Positions 45,150 to 63,023 of a stretch of DNA of 64,000 bases are shown piece by piece. Made by a program: the position numbers and the translations under genes. The stretch is from Streptomyces sp. NP160 (GTDB lineage: Bacteria; Actinomycetota; Actinomycetes; Actinomycetales; Quadrisphaeraceae), in NCBI RefSeq assembly GCF_006335115.1, contig NZ_VDMJ01000004.1, positions 62,001 to 126,000 of the forward strand. Direction: 5' to 3'. The notes under the pieces are model-generated. The model did no database searches, was not told where the DNA came from, and saw only the letters and a program-made list of their open reading frames with translations. Numbering within the stretch: position 1 is the stretch's first letter; each line of letters begins with the position of its first letter.

Positions 45150-45857
45150 ATGAGCAGCACGAGCAACACCGGCACGTCCAGCTCCAGCAGCACCATCGGG
45201 ATCATCGGTGCCGGGCACATCGGCTCGGCCGTCGCGCAGCTCGCGGTGGACGCCGGCCTCGACGTCGTCATCGCCAACTCCCGCGGGCCCGAGACGCTCA
45301 CCGACCTCGTCTCCGCGCTGGGCCCGCACGCCCGCGCCGCGACAGCGGACGAGGCGGCCCGTGCCGGGGACGTCGTCGTCCTGACCGTCCCGCTGAAGAG
45401 CACCACCGACATCGACCCCGAGCCGCTGGCCGGCACGGTGGTCCTGGACACCGGCAACTACTACCCGCAGCGCGACGGGCAGGTGGCCGCCCTCGACGAC
45501 GGCTCGACCACGTCCAGCGCCCTGACCCAGCAGCACCTGGCGGACAGCTCGGTGGTGAAGGTGTTCAACAACATCTACTCCGAGTCGCTGAGGTCGTTGG
45601 CCCGGCCGTCCGGCGACGCCGAGCGCACCGCCCTGCCCGTCTTCGCCGACGACGAGGAGGCGAAGGCCGTCGCCACCGCCTTCCTCGACGTGATCGGCTA
45701 CGACGCCGTGGACGGCGGCGACCTCGCCGAGAGCTGGCGCGCGGAGCCGGGGCGTCCCGCCTACGGGCTGCCCTACGCCGCGGGCGAGGACTTCACCGCT
45801 GCGAAGCCGGCCGGTGCGGACGCGGTCCGCGAGGCGCTGGCCCGCGCGGAGCGCTGA
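45150..45857 (+). CDS. NADPH-dependent F420 reductase-like oxidoreductase (paralogue A)
   Basis: A 235-residue Rossmann protein of the NADP oxidoreductase/coenzyme F420-dependent family (PF03807). The nucleotide motif is GIIGAGHIGSAVA, followed by IANSRGPETL, VVLTVPLKS, DTGNYYPQRDG and VVKVFNNIYSESL. It probably reduces or oxidises a small molecule using NADP, and a role in F420 chemistry is possible but unproven. It is closely similar to the gene at 50260-51009. The serine/threonine-rich N-terminus is not conserved. Confidence 0.82.
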   Translation: MSSTSNTGTSSSSSTIGIIGAGHIGSAVAQLAVDAGLDVVIANSRGPETLTDLVSALGPHARAATADEAARAGDVVVLTVPLKSTTDIDPEPLAGTVVLDTGNYYPQRDGQVAALDDGSTTSSALTQQHLADSSVVKVFNNIYSESLRSLARPSGDAERTALPVFADDEEAKAVATAFLDVIGYDAVDGGDLAESWRAEPGRPAYGLPYAAGEDFTAAKPAGADAVREALARAER

Positions 45858-48319: not shown

Positions 48320-50263
48320 GTGGTCACCACGTCGAGCCCCACCCTCAGTCCCACCCTCAGTCCCCCCGTCCCCACGACCACCCCCGGGAACCCGGGCGGT
48401 CACGGCCCGCGCGGAGCCCAGCACGGGCGAGGTCCCGCGAAGACCGACCCCGCCGACCGCGAGCAGCTGCGCCGCTCACCCGTCTCCCTGCGCCGCATCG
48501 CCTCCCTCTTCGCGCCGCACCGATGGCAGGTCGCGCTCGTCGTCGTCCTGATCGTGGCGTCGTCGGTGGTGTCGCTGGCCTCGCCGTTCCTCGTCCGCGC
48601 GGTCATCGACGACGCGCTGCCGCACGCCGACGTGCGCCTGCTCGTGCTCGCCGTGGCCGGCATGGTCGCCGTCGCCGCGGTCACCTCGCTGCTCGGCGTC
48701 GTGCAGACGTGGATCTCCACCGGCGTCGGGCAGCGGGTCATGCACCGGCTGCGCACGTCCGTCTTCACGAGTCTGCAGCGGCAGTCGATGGACTTCTTCA
48801 CCCGCACCCGCGGCGGCGAGATCACCTCCCGCCTCACCAACGACATCGGCGGCATGCAGTCCGTGGTGACCTCCACGGCGACGTCGCTGGCGTCCAACGC
48901 CACCACGGTGGTCGGCACGGCCGTCGCCATGGCGGCGCTGTCGTGGCGGCTGTCCCTGCTGACGCTCGTCGTGCTGCCGCCCGCGGTGTGGCTCACGCGC
49001 CGGGTGGCGCTGCTGCGCCGCTCGATCACCTCCGCGCAGCAGCGGCGGCTCGCCGACCTGCAGCACCAGGTGGAGGAGTCCCTCAGCGTCTCCGGCGCGC
49101 TCCTCACCAAGACGCTCGGCACCGCCGGCTCCCAGGCGCAGCGCTTCGCCGACACCTCCGCCGAGCTGGTCGAGCTCGAGGTGCGCTCCTCGCTCGCCGG
49201 CCGCTGGCGCATGGCCACCATGAACGTCGTCTTCGCGGCCATCCCCGCGCTCATCTACCTCGCCGCCGGGCTGCCCGTCACCTCCGGCGGCATGACCGTC
49301 GGCACGCTCGTGGCGTTCACCGCGCTGCAGGCGGCGATCTTCAGGCCGCTCATGGGGCTGCTGGACGTGGGCGTGCAGCTCACCGCGTCGATGGCGCTGT
49401 TCAGCCGCGTGTTCGAGTACCTCGACCTGCCCGTCGACATCGCCGACCCGGAGCACCCCGTCCCGCTCGAGCCGGAGCGCGTGCGCGGCGAGGTCCGCTT
49501 CGAGGGCGTCTCGTTCACCTACCCCGGCGCCGACCGCGCCGCGCTGGCCGACGTCGACGTCACCGTGCCCGCCGGCACGTCGCTGGCGCTGGTCGGAGCC
49601 ACCGGCTCGGGCAAGTCGACGCTGGCCTCGCTCGTCGCCCGCCTCCACGACCCGTCGCGCGGTCGGGTGCTGCTCGACGGCGTGGACCTGCGCGACCTGT
49701 CCCTGGCCGCGCTCGCCTCGGTGGTCGGCGTGGTCTCCCAGGAGACCTACCTGCTCCACGCGACGGTGCGCGAGAACCTGCGGCACGCGGAGCCGTCGGC
49801 CACCGACGCCGAGGTCGAGCAGGCGGCGCGCCGGGCCCAGGTGCACGACGTCATCACCGCCCTGCCCGACGGCTACGACACGCTCGTCGGCGCCCGCGGC
49901 CACCGCTTCTCCGGCGGCGAGCAGCAGCGGCTGGCCATCGCCCGCACACTGCTGCGCGACCCGAAGGTCCTCGTGCTCGACGAGGCCACCTCGGCGCTGG
50001 ACAACACCACCGAGCGGGCGGTGCAGGCGGCGCTCGAGGAGGTCCGCCGCGGCCGGACGACCATCATGATCGCCCACCGCCTGTCCACCGTGACCGGCGC
50101 GGACAGCGTCGCCGTGCTCGACGGCGGCCGCGTGGTGGAGCAGGGCGCGCCGGCGGACCTGGCGAGCGCCGGGGGAGCCTTCGCCGCGCTCGCCGCCGCC
50201 GGTGCGCGGGCCGAGGCGGTCGCGGGAAGGTCGCTCGAGCAACCGGTGTTCGCACCCGCATGA
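48320..50263 (+). CDS. ABC exporter, fused transmembrane and ATPase domains
   Basis: A 647-residue half-transporter. The transmembrane domain has about six helices (ALVVVLIVASSVVSLASPFLV onward). The ATPase domain has Walker A GATGSGKST near residue 427, signature FSGGEQQRLAIA near 531 and Walker B VLVLDEATSALD near 551. It exports drugs or lipophilic compounds as a dimer. GGAAGGAC lies 5 bases before GTG 48320. It is controlled by the divergent MarR gene. Its stop overlaps the next gene's ATG (ATGA), so the F420-type oxidoreductase is in the same operon. Confidence 0.93.
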   Translation: MVTTSSPTLSPTLSPPVPTTTPGNPGGHGPRGAQHGRGPAKTDPADREQLRRSPVSLRRIASLFAPHRWQVALVVVLIVASSVVSLASPFLVRAVIDDALPHADVRLLVLAVAGMVAVAAVTSLLGVVQTWISTGVGQRVMHRLRTSVFTSLQRQSMDFFTRTRGGEITSRLTNDIGGMQSVVTSTATSLASNATTVVGTAVAMAALSWRLSLLTLVVLPPAVWLTRRVALLRRSITSAQQRRLADLQHQVEESLSVSGALLTKTLGTAGSQAQRFADTSAELVELEVRSSLAGRWRMATMNVVFAAIPALIYLAAGLPVTSGGMTVGTLVAFTALQAAIFRPLMGLLDVGVQLTASMALFSRVFEYLDLPVDIADPEHPVPLEPERVRGEVRFEGVSFTYPGADRAALADVDVTVPAGTSLALVGATGSGKSTLASLVARLHDPSRGRVLLDGVDLRDLSLAALASVVGVVSQETYLLHATVRENLRHAEPSATDAEVEQAARRAQVHDVITALPDGYDTLVGARGHRFSGGEQQRLAIARTLLRDPKVLVLDEATSALDNTTERAVQAALEEVRRGRTTIMIAHRLSTVTGADSVAVLDGGRVVEQGAPADLASAGGAFAALAAAGARAEAVAGRSLEQPVFAPA

Positions 50264-51009
50264 GCACCAGCACCACCGGACCCGCTGCGCCGACGAGCCC
50301 GGCCAGCCAGACCGTCGGCATCATCGGCGCCGGCAACATCGGCAGCACCGTGGCGCGCCTGGCGGTCGACGCGGGCCACCGCGTCGTCATCGCCAACTCC
50401 CGCGGCCCCGAGACCCTCGCCGACCTCGTCGCCGACCTCGGCGAGAACGCCCGCGCGGCCACGGCCGCCGAGGCCGCGCAGGCCGGCGACCTCGTCGTCG
50501 TGACCGTCCCGCTGAAGGCCTACCGCGAGCTGCCGGCCGAGCAGCTGGCCGGCAAGGTCGTCCTGGACACCAACAACTACTACCCCGACCGCGACGGCCA
50601 CATCGCCGAGCTCGACGACCACAGCGCCACCACCAGCGAGCTCGTGGCGCGCCACCTGGCCGGCGCGTCCGTGGTGAAGGTCTTCAACAACATCTTCTTC
50701 ATCGCCCTCGCGGCCCTGTCGAAGCCCGCTGGAGACCCCGACCGCGCGGCCCTGCCGATCTTCGGGGACGACGACGACGCGAAGGCCACGGCCACCCGCT
50801 TCCTCGACGGCCTCGGCTACGACGCGGTGGACGGCGGGCCCCTGGCCCGGAGCTGGCGCGCCGAGAACGGCCGGCCGGTCTACGTCTTCCCGTACGCGAA
50901 GGACGGCGACGTCGCCACGCCCGTCCCGGCGGACGCCGCGACGGTCCGCTCGCTGCTCGAGGCCGCCGAGCTGGACGACCCGGCCCAGCAGCCGAAGACG
51001 CTCAGCTGA
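50260..51009 (+). CDS. NADPH-dependent F420 reductase-like oxidoreductase (paralogue B)
   Basis: A 249-residue Rossmann protein with GIIGAGNIGSTVA, IANSRGPETL, VVVTVPLKAYREL, DTNNYYPDRDGH and VVKVFNNIFFIAL. It is closely related to paralogue A at 45150-45857. Its ATG overlaps the exporter stop by four bases, so both are expressed under the MarR-controlled promoter. It could modify the compound that the pump exports. Confidence 0.85.
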   Translation: MSTSTTGPAAPTSPASQTVGIIGAGNIGSTVARLAVDAGHRVVIANSRGPETLADLVADLGENARAATAAEAAQAGDLVVVTVPLKAYRELPAEQLAGKVVLDTNNYYPDRDGHIAELDDHSATTSELVARHLAGASVVKVFNNIFFIALAALSKPAGDPDRAALPIFGDDDDAKATATRFLDGLGYDAVDGGPLARSWRAENGRPVYVFPYAKDGDVATPVPADAATVRSLLEAAELDDPAQQPKTLS

Positions 51010-59874: not shown

Positions 59875-61419
59875 CTAGTGCCGCCCGGAGACGGCGCGGC
59901 GCATGCGCTCGACGTGCGGGGCCAGCCGGTCCAGCACCTCGGCGTGGGCGGCGCGCCCGCAGCAGTGCGGGTGCACCCAGACGTGGCACGTGTTCCGGCC
60001 CAGCACCACGACGCCGGGCCCGCCGTCCACCTCGACCACGCCGGCCACGTCCTCCCAGCGCACCTCGTGCACGCTGCCGGTCTCGTCCTGCTGGGCGATG
60101 CTGTGCTCGCCGAGCACGAGGGTGCGGTCCGCGCACGTGCGCAGCAGCCGGCGGTGCAGCGGCGGCCGCAGCCGGCGCCCGGCGGGCAGCTCGGAGACCT
60201 GCGGGCACCACGACCGCTCGGTGATCGGCGCCGCCTGCTGCGCGGAGTCCGGCAGCCGGACGCCCTCGGGGAGGACGAGCAGCGCCCGGCGCGCAGCCAC
60301 CGCCAGCCTCTCGCGCACGTCGTCGCGGGTGGTCGACGCGACCGCGGCGGCGATCCGCGCCAGCGGCGTGACGCCCTGCCGCCCCGCGGCGACGGCCTGC
60401 ACGGTCTCGCCCGCGTGGCGGAACGGCTCGTTCTCCACCACGTCCTCGTCGGTCGGGTCGACCTGGGCCGCGTACGCCTCCAGCACGCCCTCGAGCTCCG
60501 CCTGCCCCGGGCCGTTCGCCGCGAGCTCGACCAGCTGCTCCCACACCAGGGCCGCCGCCTGCCCGGCCGCCTCCTCGGGGACGTCGACGACGAGCGTGAA
60601 CACGTCACCGTCAGCGCCGTCCATGCGGTCCGACGACACCGAGAACGACAGCTCGGGGTGCTCGCGCTCGACGTCCTCCAGGCGCTCGCACAGCAGCGTG
60701 TGCGCGACGCGGACCGCGTAGTCCTCGGGCGCGAGGCCGTCGAGCAGCAGCGCCACCCCCGGTGAGGGCCCCTCGACCCACTCGGGCCCGTCGCCCAGGA
60801 GGGGCCTCGGGAAGCGGCGCGGGGCCGGGCCCCCGGGGGCGGAGGGACCACCCGCGGGCAGCGGCAGGGCCAGCCCCTCCGGCAGCGGCCCGAGGACGGC
60901 GAGCGCCGCGCGAGCGGCGGTGAAGTGCTCGCGGACGTGCGCGAGCACGTCGTCGCCGGTGTGCACCAGCGGCCCGTACCCGGGTGTGGCGAGCAGGCCG
61001 GCGCCCTCGAAGCCGTAGCGAGCGGTCCACGCCGCTGCAGCGGTGAGGTCACCACCGGCGCCGCCCTCCGTCGCGACGACGTCCTTCTCGCGGTGGAGGT
61101 GGTCCAGCGGCAGGTCGGCCAGCGCCGTGCAGATGCGGCGCAGGAAGGTGGCGACCTCCTCCGGGCGGCCGTGGGCGAAGAAGGCGGTCTCGCTGACGCT
61201 GACGCTGGCGTTCGCCTCGAGGTGGCTCTTGGGCAGCTGCGACATGGCGAGGTGCTCGACGAGGTGGGTCAGGCCGATGGTCTCGAAGGCCTCGTCCTGC
61301 CGTCCGACGCCGAAGAAGAGCGCCGCGCGGGTCTTGGACGGTCCGGGCTGGTGGAACACGCGGACGCCGTCGACCACCAGCTCGCGCACCGCGGTCTCCT
61401 GCAGCGGCTCCGCGCTCAC
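59875..61419 (-). CDS. M16 (pitrilysin-type) zinc peptidase-like protein with C-terminal PH-like region, HXXEH
   Basis: A 514-residue protein. The M16 zinc motif is complete: H52-L-V-E55-H56 in LTHLVEHL, with the third ligand candidate E118 in EKDVVATEGG. A second half-domain follows (residues about 185-390). The last 110 residues (VLGEHSIAQQDETGSVHEVRWEDVAGV...HVWVHPH) look like a bacterial PH-like domain, a fusion I do not know for M16 proteins. It overlaps the upstream paralogue by four bases (GTGA), so they are made together. No signal peptide is visible. Confidence 0.8.
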   Translation of the reverse strand: MSAEPLQETAVRELVVDGVRVFHQPGPSKTRAALFFGVGRQDEAFETIGLTHLVEHLAMSQLPKSHLEANASVSVSETAFFAHGRPEEVATFLRRICTALADLPLDHLHREKDVVATEGGAGGDLTAAAAWTARYGFEGAGLLATPGYGPLVHTGDDVLAHVREHFTAARAALAVLGPLPEGLALPLPAGGPSAPGGPAPRRFPRPLLGDGPEWVEGPSPGVALLLDGLAPEDYAVRVAHTLLCERLEDVEREHPELSFSVSSDRMDGADGDVFTLVVDVPEEAAGQAAALVWEQLVELAANGPGQAELEGVLEAYAAQVDPTDEDVVENEPFRHAGETVQAVAAGRQGVTPLARIAAAVASTTRDDVRERLAVAARRALLVLPEGVRLPDSAQQAAPITERSWCPQVSELPAGRRLRPPLHRRLLRTCADRTLVLGEHSIAQQDETGSVHEVRWEDVAGVVEVDGGPGVVVLGRNTCHVWVHPHCCGRAAHAEVLDRLAPHVERMRRAVSGRH

Positions 61420-63023
61420 GCGGCACCGTCCCCGGCCTCGGCGTGCTGGGCCGGTGCGGCCAGCTCCCGGGCGCGCTGGGCCTGTCGCAATCGCTCGACC
61501 TGCGGCGCCAGCCGGCGCAGCACCTCGTCGAAGGCCTCGCGGCCGTAGGCGTCGGGGTGCACGGGAAGACCGCACAGGTGACGGCCCACGATGCCGAGGC
61601 CCCCCTCCGAGTACGGCAGCTCGTCGACCCCGGCCACCTCGTCCCAGCGCACCACGTGCACCGCGCCGGTCTCGTCCTGCAGCGCGATGCACTCCTCGGT
61701 GACCACCAGCCGGCGCCGCGCCAGCTTCGAGCGCAGCCTGTCCAGCAGCGGCGGTCGGTGCTGGCGGCCCGGCGGCAGCGCGGGCGCCACCGCGCACCAC
61801 GACCGCTCGGCGATCGGTGCCGCCTGCAGCGCCGCGTCCGGCACGCGGAAGCCGTCGGGGACGACGAGCAGCGCCCGGCGCGCGGCCGCCGCGAGGCGGT
61901 CGCGAACCGCCTCGCGGGTCACCCCGGCCAGCCCGGCGGAGACCTCCTCCAGGGTGCGGACCCGGCCGTAGAGCGCGGTGTGGAACGCGGTGCGGAACGG
62001 CTCGGCGTCGGCGACGTCGTCGTCGGAGGCGTCCAGCTCCGCGGCGGAGCCGGTGAGGGCGTGGTCGAGCTCCGCCGGTGTCGGGCCGTTCGTCGCGAGG
62101 TCGGCCAGCTGCTCCCACACCAGGCCGGCCACCTCCGCGCCCATGCCCTCGCGGACGTCGAGGGCCACGGTGAAGACGTCGCCGTCGACCCCGTCGAGGA
62201 GGTCGGAGGAGACGGAGTACGTCAGGCCGTGGCCCGTGCGCGCGACGTCCTGGAGGCGCTCGCACAGCACGGTGCGCGCGACGTCCGCCGCAGCGTCGTA
62301 GGGCTCGAGGCCGTCCAGCAGCAGGCCGACCCCCTCCGTCGGGGCCTGGACCCACTCCGGTCCGTCGCCCAGGCGCGGCCGCGGGTGGCGGCGCGGCGCG
62401 CGCGGCGCCGTCCCGTCGGCCCGCAGCGGCAGCGACAGCCCCTCGGGGAGCGGGCCCAGCACGCCGAGGGCGGCCCGCCCGGCGTGGAAGCGCTCGGCGG
62501 CGTGGGCCAGCGCCTCCTCACCGGTCAGGACCAGGGGGCCGAGCCCGTCGGTGAGGGCCAGGCCGGGTCCGTCGAACCCGTAGCGGGCCGCCCAGGAGAC
62601 CGCCATGGTCATGTCCGCACCGACGGTGCCGTCCGCGACCAGCGCGCTCTTCTCGCGCTCGAGGCGGTCCAGGGGGAGGTCGGCCAGGGCCGTGCACACC
62701 CGGCGCAGGACGTCGCCGACCTCGTCGGGGCGGCCGTACGCGGAGAACTCGGTGTGGTCGACGGCCACGGTCACGTCCACCTCGCAGCGCGTCCTGGGCA
62801 GCTGCGCCCAGACGAGGTGCTGGACGAGGTGGGTCAGGCCGACGGTCTCGAAGGACTCGTCCCGCAGGCCGACGTCGAAGACCAGGCTGGCCCGGGTCTT
62901 GGACGGGCCGGGCCGGTGGAACACCCGCACGCCGTCAACGACCAGCTCCTGCAGGCCCGTCTGCAGGCCGTCCCGCAGGACGGCCCGCTCCTCGTGCTGC
63001 AGGTCGACCTGCTCCGCGCTCAT
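61416..63023 (-). CDS. M16-like partner protein with C-terminal PH-like region, HXXQH (probably inactive)
   Basis: The 535-residue product is a close relative of the downstream gene, with GLTHLVQHLVW: the catalytic glutamate is glutamine (H65-x-x-Q68-H69). The third ligand is replaced too (EKSALVADG for EKDVVATEG). It keeps the PH-like C-terminus (VTEECIALQDETGAVHVVRWDEVAGV). An inactive partner with an active one is the known design of some M16 heterodimers. It is 44 bases downstream of sufU. GTG or ATG 63023 is the start. Confidence 0.8.
   Translation of the reverse strand: MSAEQVDLQHEERAVLRDGLQTGLQELVVDGVRVFHRPGPSKTRASLVFDVGLRDESFETVGLTHLVQHLVWAQLPRTRCEVDVTVAVDHTEFSAYGRPDEVGDVLRRVCTALADLPLDRLEREKSALVADGTVGADMTMAVSWAARYGFDGPGLALTDGLGPLVLTGEEALAHAAERFHAGRAALGVLGPLPEGLSLPLRADGTAPRAPRRHPRPRLGDGPEWVQAPTEGVGLLLDGLEPYDAAADVARTVLCERLQDVARTGHGLTYSVSSDLLDGVDGDVFTVALDVREGMGAEVAGLVWEQLADLATNGPTPAELDHALTGSAAELDASDDDVADAEPFRTAFHTALYGRVRTLEEVSAGLAGVTREAVRDRLAAAARRALLVVPDGFRVPDAALQAAPIAERSWCAVAPALPPGRQHRPPLLDRLRSKLARRRLVVTEECIALQDETGAVHVVRWDEVAGVDELPYSEGGLGIVGRHLCGLPVHPDAYGREAFDEVLRRLAPQVERLRQAQRARELAAPAQHAEAGDGAA

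Follow-up and report, generated by a model that had tools for sequence, protein, structure and literature searches.

Known M16B heterodimers carry the HxxEH zinc motif on one subunit and an arginine/tyrosine (R/Y) pair on the partner (PMC8960859), and the R/Y pair completes the M16 active site and binds substrate (PMC12731061). Here, such systems are compared with a tandem gene pair, P0002 and P0001, located in a stretch of 64,000 nucleotides from Streptomyces sp. NP160 (contig NZ_VDMJ01000004.1, positions 62,001 to 126,000 of the forward strand), hereafter the window. Both products join an M16-peptidase-like part to a PH-like C-terminal domain, an architecture called M16-PH below. We estimate at roughly 70% the probability that each gene codes for one half of a cytosolic zinc peptidase of the M16B type, which would act as an obligate heterodimer. 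Active/inactive M16B pairs and the R/Y rule are already known; the M16-PH architecture with complementary degeneration appears to be new.

Two M16B heterodimers, Sph2681/Sph2682 of Sphingomonas sp. A1 (3amj, whose chains are named active and inactive subunit) and TTHA1264/TTHA1265 of Thermus (7v4y), have folds similar to the P0001 model. In the Sphingomonas pair, the zinc and R/Y motifs are split between the chains as in the window pair (PMC8960859). The chains of both heterodimers are about 400 residues long and P0001 exceeds them by its PH-like tail; the complementarity of the window pair, compared with theirs, is young and partly graded. In the lanthipeptide-maturing M16B pairs PttP1/PttP2, Bcn-gP1/gP2 and YmfF/YmfH, the HxxEH and R/Y duties are divided likewise. 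R298/Y305 of PttP1 has the same seven-residue spacing as Arg262/Tyr269 of P0002, interaction was shown by pull down for Bcn-gP1/gP2 and PttP1/PttP2, and the available text mentions no PH-like domain in these pairs (all PMC8960859). The mitochondrial processing peptidase (MPP, alpha/beta) consists of an inactive and an active chain of about 500 residues (PMC12731061, PMC11266112). It shares the fold of the P0001 model, where its matches end at residue 401 or earlier, ahead of the PH-like tail. Unlike the window pair, MPP has a glycine-rich loop in its alpha chain and is without the R/Y pair (PMC12731061, PMC11266112). Our literature search found no description of an M16-PH fusion or architecture, and the terms 'pleckstrin' and 'actinobact' are absent from the main text of a recent M16 review (PMC12731061). 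Streptomyces M16 clusters near gyrA/ptsH and near pnp are described in PMC13118837, and no mention of the further Streptomyces cluster near glmS/coaA was found in its available text.

Motifs and fold of the tandem pair

An earlier note on this DNA, made from the sequence alone, had described two coupled homologous genes of 514 and 535 residues. Coordinates and lengths agreed with this description; the genes overlap by 4 bp, and their products are 57% identical over 509 columns (BLASTP, E 1e-166). The features of the pair are listed below, with shared positions in the numbering of the downstream protein.

61416-63023, minus strand: upstream gene P0002, 535 amino acids; M16-PH protein with a degenerate zinc site (HLVQH, E118 to Asp, N70 to Asp) and an intact R/Y pair
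59875-61419, minus strand: downstream gene P0001, 514 amino acids; M16-PH protein with intact HxxEH/E118 and an R/Y loop degraded at two positions (Gly replaced by Glu, Tyr by Phe) with Arg retained
61416-61419, minus strand: GTGA stop/start overlap of 4 bp, compatible with translational coupling
62817-62831, minus strand: HLVQH, degenerate zinc motif of P0002, from the sequence
61252-61266, minus strand: HLVEH (H52-H56), intact zinc motif of P0001, from the sequence
61066-61068, minus strand: E118, third zinc ligand of P0001 (Asp in P0002), by alignment
62217-62240, minus strand: R...Y loop RTGHGLTY, intact substrate-binding pair of P0002 (Arg262/Tyr269), by alignment
60643-60666, minus strand: R...F loop REHPELSF, degraded substrate-binding pair of P0001, by alignment
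61467-61799, minus strand: PH-like C-terminal domain of P0002, by alignment to the P0001 domain, the only one folded
59878-60210, minus strand: PH-like C-terminal domain of P0001, about residues 404-514, by domain model and structural matches

P0001 has H52-L-V-E55-H56 together with E111 and E118. P0002 has HLVQH, with Asp at the positions of both E118 and N70. The HxxEH and E118 that the earlier note had assigned to the downstream gene, and the HxxQH and changed third ligand assigned to the upstream gene, were therefore both found, the changed ligand being Asp. R252 and Y259 correspond to the M16 R/Y pair by position, lying seven residues apart as in PttP1. Conservation was counted in 76 family rows, with the pairs, the third paralogs described below, damaged rows and the repeat L043 left out. 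H52, E55, H56, E118 and R252 are conserved in 100% of these rows, N70 and Y259 in 99%, E111 in 96% and G256 in 89%.

Pfam Peptidase_M16_C was above its cut-off in both proteins (E about 1e-6), and the N-terminal Peptidase_M16 was below it in both (15.2 and 11.7 bits versus 22.3). P0001 and its isolated tail were folded, the full model being built on 69 family sequences. The P0001 model (predicted local distance difference test, pLDDT, 92.2; predicted template modelling score, pTM, 0.91) consists of two M16 domains and a PH-like domain, and M16B-fold chains span its residues 6-399. Residues 11-395 superimpose on Bacillus halodurans 3hdi with Z 29.7 (2.9 A, 365 residues). Heterodimer subunits are among the best structural matches, with Z 29.7 for TTHA1264/1265 (7v4y) and Z 27.0 for Sph2681/2682 (3amj). 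When the family profile was compared with solved structures, the best match was 4nnz, PA0372 of the PA0371-PA0372 heterodimer (E 8.9e-18); for P0001 alone the best was a designed protein (E 0.048). P0002 aligns to P0001 throughout and was assigned its fold via the 57% identity. The M16-peptidase-like character proposed earlier is supported by the model of P0001 and by the Peptidase_M16_C matches of both proteins. Between the second His of HxxEH and the ligand Glu lie 61 residues in 80 of the 86 rows with an intact site (64-65 in six), versus 75 in the two canonical M16B proteins measured, that of the window's own genome and L041. This short spacing may explain the weak Pfam matches of the N-terminal domain. 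The canonical M16B of the window's genome is a different, separate gene. NCBIfam YfmF_fam matched 6 of 69 family members (best E 4.3e-6).

The extra C-terminal region of about 110 residues, present in both proteins, is well supported as PH-like. Folded alone, P0001 residues 400-514 gave a model (pLDDT 88.6, pTM 0.79) of seven strands, each of at least three residues, and a C-terminal helix. The 50 Foldseek matches listed are entries bearing PH, PTB, GRAM or FERM domains by their titles or known content, except 7xsx_k with its uninformative title. Among the matches listed, the best had E 0.032 (top probability 0.99), and none reached E 0.001. PH-type entries also dominated the VIA-align list, where the best match, an MTMR6 entry (Z 7.1, 4.4 A, 82 residues), falls under the caution line of Z = 8. 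The tail of P0001 is thus predicted to take up the PH superfold and matches entries of that superfold, as the earlier note had supposed. In the hidden Markov model check that it proposed, 5 of 69 homologous tails matched Pfam bPH_6 (PF10756, best E 3.3e-5), and the tail of P0001 itself had no Pfam match up to E 1. One tail of the 69 weakly matched YcxB (E 0.052), and the PH-domain profile searched against solved structures returned only lectins and haemoglobins at E 0.27 and weaker. M16-PH tails differ from the bacterial PH domains of bPH_6 by their fusion to an M16 peptidase. The net charge of the two PH-like domains of the pair is only +1 and +3. A Cys/His-rich stretch (TCH-V/I-WVHPH; window 59961-59993) lies in the PH-like domain of the three downstream copies described below and is absent from the upstream copies; judged from its residues, it is a possible metal site.

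Complementary losses in the copies

Three congeneric genomes, including that of the window, carry the pair. Six zinc-side positions (52, 55, 56, 70, 111 and 118) and three R/Y-loop positions (252, 256 and 259) were compared. In the downstream copies, changes were found in none of the 18 zinc-side cells and in six of the nine R/Y-loop cells (G256 to E, A and E; Y259 to F in all three; R252 kept). In the upstream copies, seven of 18 zinc-side cells were changed (E55Q twice, H56R once, N70 to D, E and E, E118D once) and none of the nine R/Y-loop cells. The upstream zinc motifs include HxxQH and HxxQR, and Asn70 is lost in all three. Phe at position 259 occurs in 3 of the 88 rows of the main alignment, which are exactly the three downstream copies. 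This evidence from the R/Y loop, absent from the earlier note, strengthens its proposal of an active/inactive pair.

A second M16-PH tandem was found in an order-level relative, G229 (L193 3710-7374), with a 4-bp overlap and 32% identity. In the first gene, HxxEH, N70, E111 and E118 are kept and Trp/Val stand in place of the R/Y pair; the second retains R/Y and no longer has H52, E55, H56, N70 and E111. The split of zinc and R/Y motifs is the same as in the window pair, with the gene order reversed. By eye, both G229 proteins end in hydrophobic segments. In a tree from which L090 was left out, the second copy falls on long branches beside the dead third paralogs found in the genus of the window, so the G229 pair may be old. 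When the two pairs were pooled by distinct positions, nine zinc-side losses all fell in pseudo-copies and four R/Y-loop losses all in active copies (Fisher p 0.0014, indicative only because sites within a pair are not independent).

In the heterodimer that we favour, the two chains would face each other as a clamshell. The N-domain of P0001, the predicted catalytic subunit, would supply zinc and the catalytic Glu55, and the C-domain of P0002, the predicted substrate-gripping and non-catalytic subunit, would supply Arg262/Tyr269 to hold substrate in a single site. Short unfolded peptides would fit into the chamber, and the PH-like domains, on the outside of the clamshell, would offer surfaces for docking or assembly. 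Both chains are without any hydrophobic stretch strong enough to span a membrane, which makes a cytosolic location likely; P0001 and P0002 also have no hydrophobic segment after their tails. The earlier note had offered a heterodimeric peptidase or a peptide chaperone, with the PH-like domain as its putative targeting element. The peptidase is favoured, and the chaperone is not, because none of the zinc-site residues tested is changed in P0001. Least certain in the proposal are what the pair would cleave and what the PH-like domain does. LANC_like (PF05147) had no match in six congeneric genomes (the control matched in 1 of 14 named genomes); maturation of ribosomally synthesized and post-translationally modified peptides was rejected, and the lanthipeptide substrate class is not indicated here because no LanC-like gene was found. 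A defence role was also rejected, the single PADLOC match among 69 members (PrimPol, E 0.0023) being taken as spurious.

Several observations weigh against an obligate heterodimer. The upstream copy of G004 still has HxxEH and E118, though its Asn70 is gone. The downstream copies keep Arg252, the exchange of Tyr for Phe is mild, and Gly256 is the position conserved in just 89% of the family. Both copies also deviate from the family at further conserved positions, such as N170R in both; because both lineages differ elsewhere too, the split concerns the functional positions and not everything. Only about two independent events lie behind the complementarity. Not every tandem is complementary: the dead copy of Actinoplanes cyaneus has lost both motifs next to a partner that keeps both, and the two full tandem copies of Actinoplanes TBRC 11911 are intact alike. 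Moreover, the search for an R/Y pair was negative in the HLVQH copies of four Micromonospora loci (L090, L093, L094 and L116), pseudopeptidases without an adjoining partner in the two of these loci whose neighbourhoods were read. Finally, selection on the pair is weaker than on its neighbours, as described next, so part of the loss could be relaxation.

Origin of the pair and alternative explanations

A tree was built with the nine trait columns excluded and six of the 88 rows left out. By the Shimodaira-Hasegawa approximate likelihood ratio test (SH-aLRT), the downstream copies group together with support of 100, the upstream copies with 98 and all six with 100; congener G005 has one copy, intact throughout, which is their sister (99). 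This topology indicates that the duplication of one intact gene took place inside the genus and that the copies then diverged. The ratio of nonsynonymous to synonymous substitution rates (dN/dS) is 0.39-0.51 for the upstream and 0.38-0.42 for the downstream copies, and both are under purifying selection. The neighbouring genes have lower values (lat 0.17-0.22, sufS 0.15-0.17, lrp 0.06-0.14). In congener G002, sufS-sufU-lrp-lat are present with sufU and lrp 71 bp apart and no pair in between, and P0001 found no match in congeners G002 and G003; the locus of the pair is therefore accessory.

The accessory locus and the raised dN/dS of both copies fit an explanation in which P0002 is a duplicate heading for loss and the motif split arose by chance under relaxed evolution, as does the non-complementary dead copy of A. 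cyaneus. We consider this improbable. All three genomes carrying the pair have it with intact reading frames, dN/dS is well below 1, and in two independent pairs every loss at the nine functional positions follows the division between the copies.

Somewhat less unlikely, though still well behind, is that P0001 forms an active homodimer and that P0002, as a pseudoprotease with a regulatory task, either binds and sequesters peptides or poisons the active dimer. P0001 keeps the tested zinc-site residues and Arg252, and Phe259 may still allow some activity. Within the fetched DNA, a second M16-PH copy was seen at only 2 of the 79 loci; the majority have one copy there with an intact zinc site, and in 75 of the 88 aligned rows HxxEH/E111/E118 and R/Y are intact together. 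On these grounds homodimers are probably ancestral. We take E73 of yeast MPP beta to be the Glu of HxxEH. The Glu-to-Gln exchange of P0002 recurs in yeast MPP beta-E73Q, whose structures in complex with signal peptides are known (1hr8 and 1hr9, by their titles). An active homodimer leaves unexplained the change of GxxY in the three downstream copies, its retention in the three upstream copies and the split in G229.

A third M16-PH paralog of the window's genome (G000:C132:229425-230834; L039 8282-9979) has a congeneric counterpart (L040 3924-5615). It is dead on both counts (HLVTH/HLVAH with R/A or R/T, the window's own being HLVTH with R/A) and falls in the other main clade, near the G229 pseudo-copy on long branches. 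In G004, a gene for a TPR-repeat protein precedes it; this gene was rejected as a homologue of the TPR-like partner described below (hhalign probability 2.4, no detectable homology). A paralog without either motif would fit the idea that neither protein is a peptidase and that the pair, in the manner of the bc1 core proteins, has a structural or docking role in which the PH-like domain does the work. The bc1 core proteins share the fold and are among the structural matches, and the PH-like tail is the family's second constant element. On the other hand, most aligned rows, those of the three downstream copies among them, have a conserved zinc site (the scan behind the 79 loci favoured the motif), and we regard this idea as very improbable.

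The M16-PH family and the surroundings of the pair

A genome scan seeded with the pattern GxTHL[VL][EQ]HL[VA] confirmed 294 stretches as relatives, and 79 loci were kept and read (by record title, 77 from Actinomycetota and two from Chloroflexi metagenome-assembled genomes). Motif conservation among the 79 is biased because the seed requires the motif, a bias that the whole-genome searches do not share. At least 18 of 99 genomes related to that of the window have a match of at least 190 bits (its own genome included, one in pieces), as do at least 9 of 148 genomes from an even draw over the class, found with a narrower profile; both surveys scored only some candidates per genome. M16-PH is found widely in Actinomycetota, and the architecture, for which the earlier note knew no described system, is not peculiar to this locus. 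Because most loci are single-copy in the fetched DNA and have an intact zinc site, the PH-like domain is a trait of the family at large, not of the pair. The canonical L041 and the fragment L035 were dropped before the main alignment, L090 and L053 entered it with shortened starts, and L059, L064, L067 and L069 repeat genomes under other identifiers, three of these repeats staying in the conservation count. Ten loci without a gene call above 90 bits (L068, L073, L076, L078, L093, L094, L099, L103, L106 and L116) were read in six frames, giving seven HLVEH and three HLVQH.

In the main alignment, 34 of 88 rows have strongly hydrophobic segments past residue 440. A TPR-like protein of about 310 amino acids (e.g. 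L077 6965-7891) has only weak Pfam TPR matches (best E 0.004, 13 members scanned). Its gene adjoins the M16-PH gene in 20 of 99 loci, all within a clade of 37 rows outside which the pair lies. In 19 of the 20 the M16-PH start follows its end within 124 bp, 4-bp overlaps being frequent; only in L111 does it lie next door on the opposite strand. In seven Actinomadura/Actinocorallia proteins (e.g. L080 1673-4132), the tail is followed by a fused domain that is an end-to-end homologue of the TPR-like protein (hhalign E 2.2e-32, 303 columns). This fusion suggests a partnership of M16-PH and TPR-like proteins in that clade. A search without positive control found no TPR-like homologue in the window's own genome and five congeners. 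We see about an even chance that M16-PH is an undescribed, mainly actinobacterial peptidase system (HxxEH-x61-E plus PH-like tail), which would comprise soluble homodimers, membrane forms with a TPR-like partner and at least two independent split heterodimers, the window pair being one recent split.

A gap of 44 bp separates the end of a sufU-like gene from P0002, and 11 bp past P0001 a gene for an Lrp-like regulator starts, followed by an L-lysine aminotransferase-like gene (names from reading the sequence, without family search). The position between sufSU and lrp-lat given in the earlier note was right; as a functional neighbourhood it looks incidental, given the empty site in G002, and inference of function from these neighbours was rejected since G002 has the same genes without the pair. 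The proposed survey of neighbours gave no common gene: read by eye, ten further soluble relatives share no adjacent gene across genera, and the Blastococcus loci L045 and L046 share adjoining genes with each other. Against an incidental neighbourhood stands a cysteine-desulfurase-like gene in the fetched DNA of 11 of 99 loci, namely the congeners L025 and L026 and nine Geodermatophilaceae (L051 4639-5826 and eight more), where it lies near the M16-PH gene. By BLAST, six of these nine genes are about 30% identical to the SufS of the congeners and lie 2.2-4.7 kb from the M16-PH gene, and in L051 the gene next to it reads as MnmA. Going by these resemblances, the Geodermatophilaceae gene is probably another desulfurase, associated by chance. 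Elsewhere in the window, two similar NAD(P)-binding reductase-like genes (45150-45857 and 50260-51009, with VGIIGAG/IGIIGAG-type starts) lie 4.4 kb apart.

If the heterodimer reading is true, the pairs are recent, half-finished examples of the evolution of a homodimer into an enzyme-pseudoenzyme heterodimer, with three congeners at different degrees of loss and a distant pair that reached the same outcome. The step to a heterodimer would then be testable in soluble proteins by changing a handful of residues. The findings also point to a peptidase family that is spread over many actinobacterial groups and has a PH-like domain, joined in one large clade by a TPR-like partner.

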